The translations under genes were made by a program, and so were the position numbers. A stretch of 33,516 bases of DNA, taken from IMG/VR virus record IMGVR_UViG_3300044630_002195, positions 1 to 33,516 of that record, one strand, 5' to 3'. Numbering within the stretch: the stretch's first letter is position 1; every line of letters begins with the position of its first letter. Source of the stretch: a virus. Positions 13,370 to 27,289 of the stretch are shown here, piece by piece. Below the pieces are notes generated by a model. That model was not told where the DNA came from, did not search any database, and saw only the letters and a list, made by a program, of their open reading frames with translations.

Positions 13370-14017
13370 CTACCAGTCAGTATTTGTGCTGGTAATTGAT
13401 GGGCTGTCAAAGCCAAGGTAGAACGCTTCTTGTTCTGCATAAGGAATCTTACGAAGAGCAGACTCTAGTGGATATGGCTCTGTGCCTGTCCAATCAAATG
13501 GCTCCTTATCTGGTGCAGATGGAATAAGTGTGTAGTTGGTTTCAGTTCCCTGACCATTACGTCTCAACTTCCAGACAACATTTGAAATGCTTCCAGTCTC
13601 CATTGCATATTCCTTGATTGTATTAAATGATGATTGCTTGCTGATACCCATTGACCAGATAGCAACATATGGTGGCTCTAGGCCATCGTCTACAAGAACA
13701 TTGCAGTAGAAACGAAGACGGGCTCTCCAGCCAGCCTTTGGATCCTTGCGATGCATCTCTTCTGCCCAATCACGACCTTCTGACTCCATTGTATCTAGAG
13801 CCTTACGCTTGTAGTCCTTTGGGTTGGTGTGTTCCTTGACAACTAGTGCAAGTCCACGACCTTCGTTATAGTTTGCAGAGTCTTCGTCAAGTTCTTCAAT
13901 AAAACGAATCTTTGCTGATTGTCCGTCTGCTAACTTTAGCCAACGAACTTTTGGTCCATCTGATTTTGGTTTGTCGAGCAGGGCATTGATGTTTTTTAGT
14001 CCCTTTACTACGCTCAT
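13370..14017 (-). CDS. Probable ssDNA-binding protein (SSB/gp32-type)
   Basis: The 215-aa protein lies directly before DnaE and starts its transcription unit. It has a flexible N-terminus, a beta-rich core beginning with V-R-W-L-K-L-A-D-G-Q-S-A-K-I-R-F (the usual opening strands of phage gp32-like OB folds), many Trp and Tyr residues for base stacking, and a polar tail ending N-T-D-W. No zinc-binding set is seen. I infer the function from position and fold pattern, not from a decisive motif. AAGGAG lies 6 nt before the ATG at 14017. A hand count of 13441-13500 gives 27 of 60 G+C, clearly higher than in the halogenase gene next door, perhaps reflecting high expression or different ancestry. 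Confidence 0.62.
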   Translation of the reverse strand: MSVVKGLKNINALLDKPKSDGPKVRWLKLADGQSAKIRFIEELDEDSANYNEGRGLALVVKEHTNPKDYKRKALDTMESEGRDWAEEMHRKDPKAGWRARLRFYCNVLVDDGLEPPYVAIWSMGISKQSSFNTIKEYAMETGSISNVVWKLRRNGQGTETNYTLIPSAPDKEPFDWTGTEPYPLESALRKIPYAEQEAFYLGFDSPSITSTNTDW

Positions 14018-14082
14018 ATTATTCTCCTTTTTGTTTGTTTATTTATTTAGTTTATCATAGATGGTTGTTTTGTGCAACTATG
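14018..14082 (-). promoter_or_regulatory. Intergenic region with candidate -10 box for SSB-dnaE-recA
   Basis: This is one of the largest non-coding gaps in the window. On the minus strand TATGAT (complement of 14054-14059, 5 of 6 to the consensus) would start a transcript with a leader of about 30 nt, A-rich and ending in AAGGAG before the ATG. No -35 box is seen. A short imperfect inverted repeat (GTTG/CAAC with outer CATAG/CTATG) covers about 14056-14082 just after the halogenase stop; it lacks a U-run and I do not call it a terminator. Confidence 0.42.
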
Positions 14083-15516
14083 CTATAACAATTCTAGCAT
14101 ATCTTGGTGTTTAATCCATTGAATATCTTTTTTATTTATAATATCAATATATTGATAATATAATTTTTCATTATATTGATCAATTACAGAATAATTTTTT
14201 ATACCATTTCCATAGTATATTTTTATAAAATAATCATTGAGGTAAGACCCAGTCTTGTTAACAAAATCAGATTTACTTGGAACTGGAATGTTTGTTTTCA
14301 TTTGTTCTAAAAAGTTTGATATCTTATCTGGCATTTTATTGTTTTTAGTAAAATCTTGCCAAAAACTATTATTTTTTTTGTTAGTTACGTAATGTATATA
14401 AATTGCAGCAATTATGTCATCTTCTAGATTTTTTATATAGTTATTAATTTTATCTCTAAAATTGATTTTATCAACAAGATATTCCTCAAAAGAATCTGCA
14501 AACTCTTCCATAACTGAAATAACATTCATTAATGCGCTTGCTTCTAGTGGTTCAAAAAAACTAGCAGATAATCCTACTGCTAAACAGTTACCAATAAATT
14601 GCTTTTCATAAAATCCAGCATCATACTTTATACATCTTGCTGGTTCCCAGTTTTTATTTATTTTAGTTTTCATTTCTAGCACTGCATCTTCTTCGGAAAT
14701 AAAGTTACTATCAAAATTATATCCCATGCCATATCGTGATCTAGTTGGAATTTCAAACGTCCATCCATAGTCTAGTGCAGTTATTTTACTATAAGGTGGA
14801 ATAGAATCTCCCATTGGAACTTGACCAACAATAGAACTATTTATTGGTAAGGTTTTGTTAGCGCTTATCCATTTTTCTTTATAAAAGTTTCCAACAATAA
14901 CTCTATTAAATCCAGAACAATCAAAAACAAAATCTACATCCATAGAACTGTTTGATAATTGAATAGAATTAATTTCATCGCCCTCTGTTTTAAAACCTAC
15001 TACTAAATCATCAACTATTGTTATTCCCATATCAATGGCTACTTTTTTTAAAAACTTTGAACATAAAAATGTATCAAAATGTATTGCTGTTTGTAATCCA
15101 TTTTTTTTATTAAAAGAAACAGGAACTTTATTTTGCAATGAATATTTTGTACTTTCATCTATGTTTATTAAACTACCATCTTGTTTTATGGCTGTAGATA
15201 TTAAAGACAAATACTTATCATTATAAATTTTATTTTGTAATATTAATGGAACAAAGAAATCAATATCTTCATCATTCCAGTTGCAAAATAAAGACCCCAT
15301 CTTGATCGTGGCATTAGTCTCTTTCATAAAAGTACCAATATCAATACCAAATTCTTTTAACATTGGTAAAAAATTTCCAGAGGTTGCCTCTCCCACACCA
15401 ACAATGCCTATTGAAGAGTTTTCAATAACTGTAACATTATGATGTGGGAATTTTTTTTGCATCTTTAGAGCAACAATATAACCAGATGTTCCTCCTCCGA
15501 CTACAACTATTTTCAA
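14083..15516 (-). CDS. Flavin-dependent halogenase (tryptophan halogenase family)
   Basis: Family members use FADH2, O2 and a halide to make hypohalous acid, which a lysine passes to an aromatic substrate. The 477-aa protein has the FAD loop G7-G-G-T-S-G12, K72 in N-A-T-I-K-M aligned with the catalytic Lys79 of PrnA, and P-L-E325-A-S aligned with the catalytic Glu346 region. The family signature W-x-W-x-I-P reads W252-T-F-E-I-P257, so the second Trp is Phe. Length is near the usual 500-540 aa. The start is TTG at 15516 (TTGA overlap with the AhpD-like gene), with GGAG 9 nt before it. The gene is very A+T rich (12 of 60 G+C at 14401-14460 by hand count). Substrate and halide are unknown; related viral halogenases, such as VirX1 from a cyanophage, are known. 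It could be a broader flavin monooxygenase, but the Lys and Glu argue for halogenation. Confidence 0.87.
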   Translation of the reverse strand: MKIVVVGGGTSGYIVALKMQKKFPHHNVTVIENSSIGIVGVGEATSGNFLPMLKEFGIDIGTFMKETNATIKMGSLFCNWNDEDIDFFVPLILQNKIYNDKYLSLISTAIKQDGSLINIDESTKYSLQNKVPVSFNKKNGLQTAIHFDTFLCSKFLKKVAIDMGITIVDDLVVGFKTEGDEINSIQLSNSSMDVDFVFDCSGFNRVIVGNFYKEKWISANKTLPINSSIVGQVPMGDSIPPYSKITALDYGWTFEIPTRSRYGMGYNFDSNFISEEDAVLEMKTKINKNWEPARCIKYDAGFYEKQFIGNCLAVGLSASFFEPLEASALMNVISVMEEFADSFEEYLVDKINFRDKINNYIKNLEDDIIAAIYIHYVTNKKNNSFWQDFTKNNKMPDKISNFLEQMKTNIPVPSKSDFVNKTGSYLNDYFIKIYYGNGIKNYSVIDQYNEKLYYQYIDIINKKDIQWIKHQDMLELL

Positions 15517-16052
15517 ACCGAATATCTCCTATCGTATCCAGCCTTATTAATTTGTTCTGCTGCAAATTCCCACTCAGCATAATTTTCTTGAACAATTCCA
15601 TGCCCTTCAACGATTCTGTTATAGAAATTAAAAATTGCACAAACTGAAATTGCATCCTTGAGTTCTGCTTCAGAAAATCCAGCATCAAAAACATTTTGAT
15701 AATCAGATTTTGTTAGTTGTGAAGGAGTCAAAGTTAACTTTTTAACCAAGTCTAAAATTGTTTTTAGTTTGTGACTTTCATAATCTTGATCAACAATATT
15801 TTTTAATTCTTCTTCATCTGCATTTAAAGATTTTGCAAATACAAGATGAGATCCAGTGCAGTATTTACATCCATTCAAAGATGATGTAAACATAGCAACA
15901 ATCTCTCTATCTTTTGATGAAAGGGCGCTATCCTCTCTTAAAATTTCCTGAGCCAAAACTAATGCTGTTCCATACTTTTTTGGATTTTCCATAAATACAT
16001 CTACAATTGTAGAATTGTTATTAAAACTAGAAAATACGTTTTCAATTGCCAT
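15513..16052 (-). CDS. AhpD-like (carboxymuconolactone decarboxylase family) CxxC protein
   Basis: The 179-aa helical protein has the AhpD active-site pattern exactly: E50-x11-C62-x2-C65-x3-H69, within S-L-N-G-C-K-Y-C-T-G-S-H. In AhpD these residues form a redox-active disulphide with peroxidase or alkyl hydroperoxide reductase-partner activity; relatives are listed as peroxidase-related enzymes. The ATG at 16052 shares a base with the primase stop (TAATG) and its own stop overlaps the halogenase TTG start, so it is co-translated with the halogenase. It may protect the cell or the halogenase from peroxide leaking from the flavin reaction, or process the same substrate. This partnership is inference from gene order. 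Confidence 0.83.
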   Translation of the reverse strand: MAIENVFSSFNNNSTIVDVFMENPKKYGTALVLAQEILREDSALSSKDREIVAMFTSSLNGCKYCTGSHLVFAKSLNADEEELKNIVDQDYESHKLKTILDLVKKLTLTPSQLTKSDYQNVFDAGFSEAELKDAISVCAIFNFYNRIVEGHGIVQENYAEWEFAAEQINKAGYDRRYSV

Positions 16053-16996
16053 TATTGTAACCTTCCTATTATGTCTGATTTAAAATCACTTTCTAACTCT
16101 ATTATATCAGAATCTAGCATATCTCCAATATCTTTGTACTTTTTATCAAGTCTAATGATTTGTGATCTGCTGCCTATTTTTTCAACTATTTTACTTCCCA
16201 TGGAGTTTCCAGCATCATCATTGTCAACAATCACACACACTTCATTAAAATATTTTTTAAGCAATTCTATCTGAGAACTTGATACATTTGCACCTAATGT
16301 TGCTACTGCTGAAAATCCAACCTGGTCTAATCTAATAGCATCAAATGAGGACTCTACGACATAAACTTTATTTGACTGTTTTACTCTATGCAAATTAAAA
16401 AGTATTTTACTTTTTGGAAGTCCTGGAGTATTCTTAAACTCTTTATTTTCAATAGTTCGTGCAACAAAACCAATGGTCATTCCTTCTGGGGATTGAACTG
16501 GTATTGTAACCATATCTTGTTTTTCAGAATAGCCAAGGCTAAACTTCTCTATAGATTTTTTTGTTATTTGTCTACCTTCAAAATATCGCATTGCTCTAGG
16601 AGACTCTAGCGTTTGATTGTTCAATCTTTTGATTAATACCTCATCATATTGAATAAACTCTTTTGGTTTATATAACTTTTTATTAATAAGATTTTCAATG
16701 TTAGTTTCTTTTTCTTTACTCTTAATAAATCTGATAGACTCAAAATAAGACCTACCAGTCATCTTCATAATAAGTTCTTGAAGTTCTGCTGTTTGCTGAC
16801 AACTAAAACAAAAGAACAATCCACTTTCTTTAGACACTTCTCCTGCTGGTGTTCTTGTGTTATTGTGATATGGACAAAATATAATAAAGTCTGAACCAAC
16901 TTCTGATTCTAATGTTATGCCTGATCCAACAAGGACTCTTTTAATCTGTTCTTCTGTATATGTATTGGTCTGTACCCGTCTACCGCGATTATCCAC
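16052..16996 (-). CDS. dnaG: DNA primase (DnaG-like, zinc finger + TOPRIM)
   Basis: The 314-aa protein makes RNA primers at the phage fork. A zinc-binding domain has C41-x2-H44 and C63-x2-C66. The TOPRIM core has E215 in Y-V-V-E-S-S-F-D-A and D258-N-D260-D in V-I-V-D-N-D-D-A-G. It is about half the length of E. coli DnaG because it ends shortly after TOPRIM and lacks the C-terminal helicase-binding domain. The start is GTG at 16996 with GGAAGAAAGAAG upstream. No other start codon exists before the zinc finger, so the 82-nt overlap with the 107-aa gene is forced by the sequence. It works with the DnaB-like helicase two genes upstream. Confidence 0.92.
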   Translation of the reverse strand: MDNRGRRVQTNTYTEEQIKRVLVGSGITLESEVGSDFIIFCPYHNNTRTPAGEVSKESGLFFCFSCQQTAELQELIMKMTGRSYFESIRFIKSKEKETNIENLINKKLYKPKEFIQYDEVLIKRLNNQTLESPRAMRYFEGRQITKKSIEKFSLGYSEKQDMVTIPVQSPEGMTIGFVARTIENKEFKNTPGLPKSKILFNLHRVKQSNKVYVVESSFDAIRLDQVGFSAVATLGANVSSSQIELLKKYFNEVCVIVDNDDAGNSMGSKIVEKIGSRSQIIRLDKKYKDIGDMLDSDIIELESDFKSDIIGRLQ

Positions 16997-22307: not shown

Positions 22308-25300
22308 TTACACCTCACTCAAATAAACTGTCATAGATGGTCCACTATCATTTCTATCGTATTGAATATTATAAACGATAAATCTTGTATTTGTTGTTGC
22401 TACCATATCAATATCATCATTGTTTTTATAATCAATAGTAACAATATCTCCTAACTGAACTATTGGAGTTGCAAACATTTCAATCCCTACTGATTTTTTA
22501 GGTTGCATTAGTTTATTAATTATCCACCCCATTAAATTTTCAGCATCGTCAGATGTTTGAATATAATCACTTTCAATAGAAAAATCATTTTTTCCATAAA
22601 TAATTCTGCTATTTTTAATGGTATTATATTTTTGTTCTTCAGTAACAGGTGAATATACAATAGCATTTCCTTTAAGTTCTTGATCTGAAAAACTTGAAGT
22701 TTTCTTAAAATAATCATCAACAGTTAATGTATTAGTATTATCTTGTGTAAATGCAATACCTAGAATATTTAAAAAATTAAAAGATGTAGTTCCTAGGTCT
22801 AATAAAGAATCTGTTGAATTAAAAATTAAAAACTCTGCGCCATAAGCATTTGATTGATAATTTGAAATAGTAAAATCTTTTACTCTGTCTTGTGGTTTTA
22901 ATATCTGTGAAGATAGTGCTGGATATGCATTATCAAATCTAACATTTAAATATGCACACTCTCTCATAATAGTTCCAAACTCATCATAAAAAATTTTATA
23001 ATTTGGATTATTCCCAGGGCCAACACCAGATAAATATGTATCTTGTAAAACACCGCTTAGTGCATATTTTCTTAATGAGTCCTTAATATTAATTGAGTTA
23101 CCACTAAATACTTTACTAATTGGCTCAGTTATAGCAGTTGCTCCATTAGTAGAATAGTTTGGTCCCATGGCAAGTAGATGTTCAAACATACACTTTGATC
23201 CGCCACGAGTAAATAGTGCCGTATTATAATTTTTAGGAAGTGGGTCTTTGTCATCAACCGTAGCAATTAAAACATTGTTTATATACAAATAAAATCTTCT
23301 GCTATTTTGACCCAAAAGATTATCTACATACTCTACCGCTAAATCATAAACTGTTGTGTATTTGTCTTCAAACTTTTTAGAAATACCAACAAAGTTTCCA
23401 GAGTCAGATAAAATATCTCCGTTGCCACTCCACAAAAGTTCTGGTATTGCTTTAGTAGAATCTGAATCTTTTTTAATCTTATAAAATATAATATCTGGTT
23501 GCTCTTCAGTTCCACCATCTAAAGAAATAATTTCAAAATAATAACCATTGTTATTTGCTGCATTAACCAATACACCAAGTCCTCCAGAATTACCAGATAG
23601 TTTAATTGGTTGGTTTGGAGAACTTGTTGGTATTTGATAATATATTGATCCATCTAGTGGTGTAAGTGTTTTATACGAATCATTATTTTCGTCTTGAATT
23701 TCTCCAACAGATGCACCAATAATTCTAATTCTTGTACCAAAATAATTATATCGATCTTGAAAACTTTTAGTAATAAGCGTAATAAAATTTGTTGCATTTG
23801 GATCAGTACTTGTAAAGTTTGGACCTTTTAATACAAGTGCTGACGATTGTATAACTCCTTTATGTTTTTGTGGATTAATAATATTAGTTGTTGATATTTC
23901 ATTTTCTGTTAAATTAGATTTGCCCAAATACTTTTTAACAACACTGTTGGCTGTAGATTTTTTAGCCAAATCATTATCTACACCAGCAGGGCCAGTTGTT
24001 GTGCTTCCAGCAAAAGTACTTCCTCCAAAAAGATACTGTGATTCCATAACACAGCCTTTTCTGTTATCATAACTTAACCATTCTTGTAAAAGTCCAGCAG
24101 TGTGATAGGCAATTTGTGTTCCAAACTGAGCCCTTCCACTTGATATTACTGCACCTTCTTTCATTCTACTAGTTCCAGCAATAAGTTCATAATATGGCTC
24201 AGAGTATATTCTTACCCTACCAGTATGATATATTTTTCCATTGAATGGCATATTTGATAAATAATATTTATATTCAGCATCATTACTAATCCAAACATTT
24301 CCAATTCCTGCGACATTATACTCAACAGCATCATATTTTATAACTTCACCATTTGCATAAAAATAACCTTGATATCTAACTAACAAATATGCACTTTCGC
24401 CAAAATCAACAACATTATTTTGAATAACTCCACCTTGAACGGTAGGTGGTAAATTGCTAAGATCTTTATTTAAAACAAGCGCAGCAAGACTATATCCTCC
24501 AGAACTATTGCCAATCTTTGATTCTTGTGTATCTTGTATTTGCCATAACAAAGATGGTTTGTATATCCAAGATTTGTCTTCAGAACTAATACTTGTTTCT
24601 TGTCCTAATTGACTATACATCTTATCGATGTATCTTGTTTTATAAGTAATCTTTCCATCATTATATATTTTTTTATCTTGAGATGCCACACTAATAATAT
24701 TGGCAAGTTTTTTTCCGTCAATAATTTTGTTTTGAATAATATTGACAGTGTCAGTTACTTTTGAACCTATTAGTTCATAATTAATAGGTCTTTGCGATGC
24801 GCTTGGCATTAAATATTCTTTGCTCATAACTATAAAATTATTATATTCATCAAAAAACATTGCCGTCTGTGTTGATATTGCTAAATCATTTAATATTTCC
24901 GCTAAATTTTTATCTGGACTAACAAAAAAATATGGAATAACTGGATCAATATCGTTAACATTTCTTTTATAAATATAATTGCTAAATCCAACATAATCAA
25001 GTAATAGTGCTACAGCATAACTTAGTGAAACATTTGTAATAAATAATTCTGGTGCTGGCATTGACTCAAAATAAAAATATAAATCTCTTAATTCAATAGA
25101 AATTGTTCCACCTGTTATGTCTGCTTGAGGAAAACCTTCTGAGTATAAAGTTTTTATTGGAACTAAATAGTCATATCCAGAAACATTAATAACATTTTCA
25201 TAAAAAGTAAATTTAACATTTTTTCTAATATAGTCTGAAATCAAACTATTTGAGTTTTCATTAAAAGACTGATCTTCATCAAAAATATTTATTGTTCCAG

Positions 25301-26654
25301 TTGATGCAAGCAATTGTCCAATAGGTAGTGCGCCTGAGCCAAGATCTCCTAAAGATTTTGTAACATTATAAGAAACAACTCTGTCAGAAATGTCCACATT
25401 AAGTCGTGGAGAAAACTCAATAAGGTCAAATGTTGAATTAAATTTATTCATAGAGTCAACAATAATTCTAACACCACGAATATAATCAAACTCTCTATAT
25501 CTAGTTTGATTAGTTGTTGCTTCTAAATATGAAGATGGATTAACCAAGTTAGTTACAAAATGTTTTGTTTGATCTAATGATTCATCAGTCAAGAACCATG
25601 TATACTCTGGAACAAATTGACTGTACTCATTGTCTAAATTATTCCAAATGTAGTATGTACCTTTATCGGAACTACTAGTTATAACTAAATATGCATACCC
25701 ATCTACTGCATCTTTTGGAAGCAAGGTTGTTGATGATAAAATTTCAGCATGAATAAAACGAGATTTATATTGATCTGGAACTTTTAATCCGTAGGATAAT
25801 TCTACGTACCCATCATCTGGAACAATTGGAGATCCGTCTGGTCTTGTTGATGAAAAGTTAAAATCTTGAACAGTTACCCATTGATTTCCTTTTAATACTT
25901 GAATCTTCCATATAGTTGGAGTTGTTTTATTTACCATACCATAAAAAGGATCTGATAAAGTACTAATTGTAGATTTATACGGACCTAAATCAACACCACC
26001 AACATTGGTCTGCATTTTAATAATAACTCTATTAGATGGAACATTATTTTTATAAACAACAAATGGGGCTGCATCATCTAAATAATATGATTGTCCTATA
26101 AGTCTATTTGCTATACCTCGTTCTGTTGTATTAGCAGAAGAAGTAGATTCTTTTTCGGTTCTATAAGAAGTCCAGTATTTAAATTCATCATTTCTATCTG
26201 GCATATAATATCTTGGCCTTTGTGTAAAAAAAGAACCTTGATCATTTAATGCATCAGTAGTAAGCGAAGGGACATATCTGCCTGGAATATAAGATGTTTT
26301 GTTGATTCCTGATCTTGGTCTAAATGGCTTAATACAATCTTCTAAAGAATAATATAGTTTAAGTTGTTCTTTTGTTGCGGTATAAAATATTGGGTTGTCA
26401 TCATCATCTACCCCACCATCTACTACAACATCAGCATCTGTTGCACCAGTATAAAATTGTCCGACATCATTTGCATCAAATGTTGACTGAATTGTTAAAT
26501 ATCTAGTATCACTACTTTGTGGGCGATATCTATAGTTGCCTAACTTAAAAATATTATCTGGCATATTCATATTCCACTCAGCAACTATTTTTGATTTTGA
26601 CTGAATAGTTGGTGAATTTTGAAAATGATTTTTTAGCGCTGTATTATTAAACAT
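22308..26654 (-). CDS. Tail hub / large minor tail protein with LamG-like insert (1448 aa)
   Basis: The second gene after the tape measure and the largest fibre/hub protein. The N-terminal ~400 residues are beta-rich with repeated sandwich-like segments (V-I-I-K-M-Q-T-N, T-I-W-K-I-Q-V-L). About residues 420-620 look like a tail-hub (Tal/gp27-like) region: V-S-Y-N-V-T-K-S-L, a central T-I-S-I-E-L-R-D-L and N-L-A-E-I-L-N-D-L-A. About residues 985-1165 resemble a LamG/concanavalin-type sandwich, with F-Y-L-Y-I-N-N-V-L-I-A-T and a loop rich in Gly and Asn, suggesting glycan binding. The C-terminus returns to hub-like strands. No peptidase or lysozyme motif was found. The ATG shares a base with the distal tail stop. 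Domain limits are by eye. Confidence 0.8.
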   Translation of the reverse strand: MFNNTALKNHFQNSPTIQSKSKIVAEWNMNMPDNIFKLGNYRYRPQSSDTRYLTIQSTFDANDVGQFYTGATDADVVVDGGVDDDDNPIFYTATKEQLKLYYSLEDCIKPFRPRSGINKTSYIPGRYVPSLTTDALNDQGSFFTQRPRYYMPDRNDEFKYWTSYRTEKESTSSANTTERGIANRLIGQSYYLDDAAPFVVYKNNVPSNRVIIKMQTNVGGVDLGPYKSTISTLSDPFYGMVNKTTPTIWKIQVLKGNQWVTVQDFNFSSTRPDGSPIVPDDGYVELSYGLKVPDQYKSRFIHAEILSSTTLLPKDAVDGYAYLVITSSSDKGTYYIWNNLDNEYSQFVPEYTWFLTDESLDQTKHFVTNLVNPSSYLEATTNQTRYREFDYIRGVRIIVDSMNKFNSTFDLIEFSPRLNVDISDRVVSYNVTKSLGDLGSGALPIGQLLASTGTINIFDEDQSFNENSNSLISDYIRKNVKFTFYENVINVSGYDYLVPIKTLYSEGFPQADITGGTISIELRDLYFYFESMPAPELFITNVSLSYAVALLLDYVGFSNYIYKRNVNDIDPVIPYFFVSPDKNLAEILNDLAISTQTAMFFDEYNNFIVMSKEYLMPSASQRPINYELIGSKVTDTVNIIQNKIIDGKKLANIISVASQDKKIYNDGKITYKTRYIDKMYSQLGQETSISSEDKSWIYKPSLLWQIQDTQESKIGNSSGGYSLAALVLNKDLSNLPPTVQGGVIQNNVVDFGESAYLLVRYQGYFYANGEVIKYDAVEYNVAGIGNVWISNDAEYKYYLSNMPFNGKIYHTGRVRIYSEPYYELIAGTSRMKEGAVISSGRAQFGTQIAYHTAGLLQEWLSYDNRKGCVMESQYLFGGSTFAGSTTTGPAGVDNDLAKKSTANSVVKKYLGKSNLTENEISTTNIINPQKHKGVIQSSALVLKGPNFTSTDPNATNFITLITKSFQDRYNYFGTRIRIIGASVGEIQDENNDSYKTLTPLDGSIYYQIPTSSPNQPIKLSGNSGGLGVLVNAANNNGYYFEIISLDGGTEEQPDIIFYKIKKDSDSTKAIPELLWSGNGDILSDSGNFVGISKKFEDKYTTVYDLAVEYVDNLLGQNSRRFYLYINNVLIATVDDKDPLPKNYNTALFTRGGSKCMFEHLLAMGPNYSTNGATAITEPISKVFSGNSINIKDSLRKYALSGVLQDTYLSGVGPGNNPNYKIFYDEFGTIMRECAYLNVRFDNAYPALSSQILKPQDRVKDFTISNYQSNAYGAEFLIFNSTDSLLDLGTTSFNFLNILGIAFTQDNTNTLTVDDYFKKTSSFSDQELKGNAIVYSPVTEEQKYNTIKNSRIIYGKNDFSIESDYIQTSDDAENLMGWIINKLMQPKKSVGIEMFATPIVQLGDIVTIDYKNNDDIDMVATTNTRFIVYNIQYDRNDSGPSMTVYLSEV

Positions 26655-27289
26655 TACACTTCTTCCAAAGTAACAGAAATGTTCCAGAGATCGTGGTTGG
26701 TCCTACCTCTTTTTACAACATCATAACTAAAGTCTGCAATATACACCTGCACAATTTCACTATAACTTGTTAAGTGTAAGAATGCTGAATCATCTGATCC
26801 AAAATTTTTATAATTATCATATGATAAAAACATCCAAAATGGACCTTGGTGGTTTTCATACCAATCAAGAAGTTCAACTCCTCCTGCGCCACCGTCTGCT
26901 GTATACTCATTCTGTCCAGTAAGATCAGACTTACCCGTTGAATTAAAATCTGCAACCCTCAAATATGCTCTTGATGGCAAATTGTCCCAAGACATAGATA
27001 TAGTCATTTTGTCTGCAATATGATGAGATCTCATATTTCCATTAATCATTCTTTGTCGTTGTTCTATTCTTGTTGGCTTAAATTGTATTGATGATCTATT
27101 ATGATCTGATAAAATTAAAAATTGATTTGCTGGTTGAGCAGTAGTTGCTAATGATGAATCAGCACCTATTTCTTGTCCGATAGGAATATAAATACCAGTT
27201 GTATCTAATGTGCCAGAATTTTCTGACCAAATTATAGCCTGTGGCCTAGCATGTCTTTTTCTACCTAAAATATATGATGCTGTTGCCAT
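26654..27289 (-). CDS. Probable distal tail protein (211 aa)
   Basis: The position directly between the tape measure and the hub protein is that of the distal tail (Dit) protein in siphoviruses, which joins tube and tip. The 211-aa product is beta-rich: an N-terminal I-I-W-S-E-N-S-G-T-L strand region, a His/Arg-rich middle and a C-terminal sandwich ending H-D-L-W-N-I-S-V-T-L-E-E-V. No diagnostic motif is visible, so the name depends on synteny. TAATG junctions on both sides link it to its neighbours. Confidence 0.65.
   Translation of the reverse strand: MATASYILGRKRHARPQAIIWSENSGTLDTTGIYIPIGQEIGADSSLATTAQPANQFLILSDHNRSSIQFKPTRIEQRQRMINGNMRSHHIADKMTISMSWDNLPSRAYLRVADFNSTGKSDLTGQNEYTADGGAGGVELLDWYENHQGPFWMFLSYDNYKNFGSDDSAFLHLTSYSEIVQVYIADFSYDVVKRGRTNHDLWNISVTLEEV

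Follow-up and report, generated by a model that had tools for sequence, protein, structure and literature searches.

The question raised by this locus is why a phage should carry, among its replication genes, a gene for a predicted flavin-dependent halogenase joined to one for an AhpD-like redox protein, and what the two products might do together. The window (the whole stretch of DNA analyzed, 33,516 nucleotides) corresponds to an IMG/VR virus record of 33.5 kb with its main genes all on the minus strand, in the order DnaB helicase, 107-aa protein, primase, AhpD-like protein, halogenase, single-strand DNA binding protein (SSB), DNA polymerase III alpha and RecA/UvsX. A longer contig of 73 kb (G002) was found to be near-identical to it (99.994% across the window). 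The window virus is regarded as a lake-type virus. Its most likely host is an actinobacterium, since a WhiB gene (PF02467) is present in G002 and in several relatives. No protein-level match to AhpD was found among 50,697 records of annotated phage genomes, so the relatives are metagenomic only; those carrying AhpD are fragmentary records, and their lineages are not independent. The features discussed are given in Table 1.

Table 1. Features of the locus and of related loci (positions are those of the window unless another contig or locus is named).
Feature	Position	Strand	Basis or remark
SSB, one flank of the insert	13370..14017	-	phrog_9721, 6.6e-41
Insert: AhpD, halogenase and spacer	14018..16051	-	missing from the relatives' empty primase-SSB site
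Predicted flavin-dependent halogenase	14083..15516	-	477 aa, TTG start; PF04820, phrog_2928, AlphaFold model, motif alignment
TTGA shared by the AhpD stop codon (TGA) and the halogenase start codon (TTG)	15513..15516	-	sequence; also in G013/G014 (L048, L049)
AhpD-like / CMD-family "peroxidase-related" protein	15513..16052	-	179 aa; TIGR01926, PF02627
AGGAG ribosome-binding site	15526..15530	-	9 nt upstream of halogenase TTG
TAATG shared by the primase stop and AhpD start codons	16050..16054	-	sequence
DnaG-type primase, other flank of the insert	16052..16996	-	Toprim / CHC2 zinc finger, phrog_47
Small membrane protein (examples, among others)	L103:6490-6780, L141:6530-6814, L151:6508-6801, L045:9666-9980, G007:82355-82654		
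phrog_7084 / DUF6065-like neighbors	L252:4562-5350 (Syn10), L025:10332-11051, L117:2837-3538, L151:4313-4999		

The halogenase gene is intact and its product, which is PrnA-like in sequence, matched PF04820 (E=1.2e-77, 262 bits with a cut-off of 21) and phrog_2928 (E=2.8e-95, 321 bits). Comparison of its AlphaFold model (pLDDT 91) with solved flavin halogenases (Tar14, SttH, PrnA, MibH and others) by Foldseek gave TM-scores mostly of 0.80-0.89. The GxGxxG motif is present, and the catalytic Lys and Glu, reported as in place in the initial annotation, were confirmed by alignment to PrnA as K72 (K79 of PrnA) and E325 (E346). According to the motif alignment, the Lys is kept in 100 and the Glu in 97 of 102 phage halogenase homologues. 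With catalytic residues, family and fold all intact, the protein should be an active flavin halogenase, as predicted from sequence and model. The residues that bind tryptophan in PrnA (H101, F103, S347, Y443/Y444, E450 and W455) are not conserved (H101 is replaced by V, F103 by L and S347 by A, nothing corresponds to the W455 region, and the remaining pocket residues are unaligned or changed), which makes free tryptophan an unlikely substrate and suggests that something else is halogenated. The WxWxIP signature takes the form W-T-F-E-I-P, with F in place of PrnA W274. This variant had initially been read as a hint of an altered substrate range, a proposal that was dropped since the position of the second W is occupied by F in 14 of the 102 phage halogenases (W in 87); the loss of the pocket residues is the better evidence. 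Variants of the signature, and its absence, are known among flavin halogenases (PMC8407142). Only one of 119 sampled genomes from the phylum of G032 had PF04820 matches better than 1e-10, so no host donor of the halogenase was seen.

The AhpD-like gene is likewise intact. Its product scored 86.1 bits against the TIGR01926 "peroxidase-related enzyme" model (cut-off 81.8) and above the cut-off for PF02627, with the AhpD core model TIGR00778 just under its cut-off. The motif E-x11-C-x2-C-x3-H, described beforehand as exact, is so (E50, C62, C65 and H69). A tyrosine (Y64), not a histidine, lies between the two cysteines, which separates the protein from AhpD proper, and the CMD-family fold, as its Pfam name indicates, covers non-peroxidase enzymes too. 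AhpC (PF00578) was not found in five related phage records; AhpC from the host could still serve the AhpD-like protein. The nearest chromosomal AhpDs, from freshwater Actinomycetota (L072:4762-5298 and L073:1665-2252), adjoin sugar-kinase (FGGY) or xylose-isomerase-like genes (names assigned by eye), have no halogenase neighbors and nest among the phage AhpDs in the tree as a possible host source. Several Actinomycetota AhpD homologues (L284, L285, L286, L287 and L293) have an in-frame TGA that is read through, which fits the known AhpD-like selenoproteins.

The TTGA junction between the two genes is as first annotated and, together with the TAATG overlap, places primase, AhpD and halogenase in one chain; the products would probably be co-translated, presumably early in infection. 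No good sigma-70 site was found between the halogenase and the SSB gene, and promoter and terminator counts equaled those of shuffles. A search with the SSB found the primase directly adjoining it in 79 of 80 relatives and separated from it by AhpD alone in one, with a halogenase in none of the 80 loci; the pair is therefore an insert, in agreement with its earlier description as inserted in the replication region. One of the empty sites (L172) has an SSB 98% identical to that of the window, and DNA similarity between the two is lost within the final ~45 nt of the primase gene and picks up again from the SSB leader. The contents of the primase-SSB slot range from nothing to AhpD, a small membrane protein (described below), both of these in either order, membrane protein with halogenase, and AhpD with halogenase.

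It had been left to a neighbor search to decide whether the two genes are ever adjacent elsewhere. They are, at several loci and with halogenases of several clades, and the pair is not a chance neighborhood. Alignment of AhpD found 29 viral loci. Within the primase-SSB slot, a halogenase comes after AhpD in the window phage (represented by three records) and in G013/G014, G015-G017/G020/G024 and G018/G019. L045/L046, L057/L060/L062 and L069 have AhpD in the slot but no halogenase there, and in L057/L060/L062 AhpD is its only occupant. The TTGA junction is common to the window and G013/G014, between which identity is 58% for AhpD and 61% for the halogenase and dS exceeds 1. In the other slot lineages the two genes overlap by 17 nt and the start is an ATG. 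Both genes are under purifying selection (dN/dS of 0.09-0.29 for AhpD and 0.11-0.25 for the halogenase). The association extends beyond the slot. In phages with AhpD at the WhiB locus, AhpD follows WhiB and the halogenase is convergent, the two overlapping in L058 and L064 and lying 0.7-0.9 kb apart in L005, L063 and L066. L056/L070 have a co-directional series consisting of AhpD, a pair of 2OG oxygenases, one unknown gene, a halogenase and a DUF6065-like gene, and AhpD is found together with halogenases, a DUF6065-like gene and a small membrane protein in L151 and L325.

A PF04820 gene was found in 23 of 30 AhpD-bearing virus records compared with 3 of 50 replication-module relatives without AhpD (Fisher p = 5e-11, for records that are not fully independent). 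By lineage, a halogenase is present in six of the eight AhpD-bearing lineages of the window's replication module (Fisher p 5e-5, the lineages again not being fully independent, and one of the eight, G007, carrying AhpD elsewhere in its genome). Among the 80 best phage halogenase loci apart from these, only one has AhpD within 5 kb, which indicates that most phage halogenases do without it. Taken together, these counts mean that AhpD goes with halogenases, whereas halogenases do not need AhpD. AhpD must also be useful by itself, as no halogenase was found in several AhpD-bearing records (G010, G011, G012, G022, G025, G026 and G027, all fragments) and the two are apart in G005, G006, G007 and G030. 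As a system, the pair is thus recurrent but not obligate. The neighbor behind AhpD in G018/G019 is without both catalytic residues (R and T), and Glu346 is replaced in the halogenase-family proteins of G005/G007b. Retention of the gene after loss of catalytic residues (K to R with E346 to T, or E346 to F) was noted for the halogenase-family proteins at L053:5777-7321, G007:111657-112865 and G005:35692-36930.

The halogenases of AhpD-carrying phages belong to several clades, with seven label changes in a 102-row tree, at least five of them forced by supported branches. The AhpDs of G014, G016 and G019 are about 90% identical and their halogenases fall into different clades, from which it follows that the halogenase was exchanged and AhpD stayed. 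AhpD is the steadier gene of the pair, and inheritance of the two as one unbroken unit was rejected on the same grounds.

The membrane protein (~95 aa, range 94-106, with three predicted long helices), hitherto undescribed, is a commoner halogenase partner than AhpD. Of 80 background halogenase loci, 30 encode it, and in 28 of these its gene abuts or overlaps that of the halogenase. A search with the protein itself gave 80 loci, in 63 of which a halogenase is directly adjacent (upstream and on the same strand in 60) and in 12 of which the membrane protein is the only gene between primase and SSB. Of the other five loci, four begin close to the end of a contig and in one a halogenase lies 0.8 kb away. 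In L151 the membrane protein separates halogenase from AhpD; G007, L045 and L069 have it in the primase-SSB slot, and in L045/L046, L069 and L151 it is a neighbor of AhpD. No meaningful score was obtained against PDB, Pfam or PHROG sequence families. No fold was assigned, since the best Foldseek matches (pyruvate carrier and SemiSWEET) had E above 1 on a model with pLDDT 69.5. One ORF (L325:2843-4288) has the membrane protein fused to the C-terminus of a halogenase lacking about 70 internal positions, in an operon that also contains a DUF6065-like gene, a second halogenase and AhpD; this fusion may be a degraded gene or an assembly fault. Genes of the phrog_7084 / DUF6065-like type adjoin phage halogenases in 15 of 80 halogenase loci compared with 0 of 80 SSB control loci, and several AhpD-linked halogenases also have one as an immediate neighbor. 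In G002 a carbamoyltransferase, two 2OG oxygenases and a DUF6065-like gene lie together (22644-26816), 21 kb from the halogenase. At the two ends of the 117.6 kb contig G007 (1-1149 and 116899-117623) a kinase-like and a small membrane gene recur with slight differences, perhaps through duplication or as a terminal repeat.

The reading that we favor, tentatively, is that of a flavin halogenase with a non-tryptophan substrate accompanied by an AhpD-like scavenger of leaked peroxide or hypohalous acid. AhpD and halogenase form a two-gene insert in an actinophage replication operon, and their overlapping reading frames would let them be produced jointly. The first product would be an AhpD-like enzyme that works through thiols (CxxC plus Glu and His), and the second would use FADH2 of the host, O2 and halide to form HOX, its target being a host metabolite, a peptide or a phage or host macromolecule and not free tryptophan. 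H2O2 and HOX leaked by the halogenase would be removed by the AhpD-like protein, which may protect the infected cell or the phage replication proteins during halogenation. The pair is one variant of a set whose members shuffle (AhpD, halogenase, ~95-aa membrane protein and DUF6065-like protein) and which phages retain in varied combinations. Scavenging is favored by the leakage of free HOX and H2O2 from the Thal halogenase (PMC7948982) and by the role in hypochlorous acid degradation reported for the AhpD-family protein RcsA (cited in PMC9751292). Two readings had been offered in the initial annotation, of which detoxification of peroxide is plausible on these grounds; the other, a compact pathway making a halogenated compound, is unlikely as a self-contained unit of two genes, since no scaffold-making gene lies beside the pair and a flavin reductase was not found in five related phage records.

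The main rival to scavenging, possible if somewhat doubtful, is that the primase-SSB junction is a cargo slot and AhpD a general thiol-peroxidase or antioxidant cargo from host actinobacteria, beside which halogenases arrive independently, with shared expression and no shared reaction. This is consistent with the slot being empty in 79 of 80 relatives, with AhpD alone in it (L057/L060/L062) or the membrane protein alone (12 loci), with the exchange of halogenases behind AhpDs that are ~91% identical (G014, G016 and G019), and with the near chromosomal AhpDs of freshwater Actinomycetota not being beside halogenases. However, the linkage is also found outside the slot and with other halogenase clades (WhiB-locus phages, L056/L070, L151 and L325), and in the same replication module a halogenase accompanies six of eight not fully independent AhpD-bearing lineages compared with 3 of 50 relatives without AhpD. 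It is unlikely that the AhpD-like protein is instead a catalytic partner that takes the product of halogenation or its precursor as substrate (by CMD-type decarboxylation, for example, or a thiol-dependent step) in a short pathway that modifies a host metabolite or peptide. The CMD-family fold does include non-peroxidase enzymes, and the carbamoyltransferase, two 2OG oxygenases and DUF6065-like gene of G002 resemble a cyanophage cluster (PMC7824862), but the complete E-x11-C-x2-C-x3-H motif argues for thiol redox chemistry, the pair is without a scaffold-making gene, and the published description of the cyanophage cluster includes no AhpD. Least probable, and hardly to be expected with the Lys and Glu needed for halogenation both present, is a monooxygenase or oxidase in vivo whose H2O2 AhpD disposes of; the F at W274 is shared by 14 of 102 phage homologues and falls within the known variation of the signature, and the remaining points for it are the loss of catalytic residues in related neighbors behind AhpD and the many PF04820 proteins that, to our knowledge, are without demonstrated activity.

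The presence of an AhpD-like redox partner suggests that leakage of peroxide or hypohalous acid carries a genuine cost in vivo, and that of a membrane-protein partner suggests a membrane-linked target or a transport step. The recurrent partnership, often with the small membrane protein as third member, points to a viral halogenation module. It is possible that this module is mobile and has interchangeable helpers (the AhpD-like scavenger of HOX or peroxide, the three-helix membrane protein and the DUF6065-like protein) which would make intracellular halogenation tolerable or localize it at the membrane during infection, and that its target is a component, of host or phage, that many aquatic phages have in common. 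Phage halogenases have long been known (some 80 phage records in the present data, with VirX1 known by assay), and their function is best approached through fixed partner genes; both partners make assays on that function feasible now. The pair may also be a better-behaved halogenation biocatalyst than a lone halogenase.

The kind of enzyme is already known and the AhpD-halogenase partnership is new. In the mainly open-access literature covered, no description of an AhpD-halogenase or membrane protein-halogenase partnership was found, which bears out the initial view that the pair is not a described system; the one open-access paper containing both "halogenase" and "AhpD" deals with chlorite dismutase neighborhoods. 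The annotated actinophage DSL-LC01 has a halogenase with AhpD not beside it. A cluster for a halogenated metabolite, with carbamoyltransferases, 2OG oxygenases and a halogenase, was predicted in jumbo cyanophages (Iyer et al., 2021; PMC7824862), in a paper that makes no mention of an AhpD-like partner coupled to the halogenase. G002 combines the same three kinds of gene, but not in one cluster. PrnA, RebH and Thal share with the window halogenase the fold, the flavin motif, K79 and E346, whereas the latter has a shorter C-terminus and no conserved pocket for free tryptophan. VirX1 is the flavin-dependent halogenase of cyanophage Syn10 (PDB 6QGM), and a 530-aa gene product of Syn10 is taken to be VirX1 by its length. 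It is an assayed phage halogenase (PMC8407142) and, like the window protein, a phage flavin halogenase with catalytic Lys and Glu. The two are sequence relatives, but with 25% identity over the full length and in different clades of the tree of 102 phage halogenases. The gene adjoining the putative VirX1 in Syn10 is phrog_7084/DUF6065-like, as with several AhpD-linked halogenases, although no AhpD or membrane-protein neighbor was found within the stretch examined. The AhpD-like protein shares E-x11-C-x2-C-x3-H with Mycobacterium AhpD and TIGR01926, and reads C-K-Y-C where Mycobacterium AhpD reads C-S-H-C. RcsA of Pseudomonas aeruginosa is a bacterial stress gene, for which we know of no halogenase link. 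Its product belongs to the same AhpD family and has a reported role in the degradation of hypochlorous acid (as cited in PMC9751292), the likeness to the window protein being one of family.
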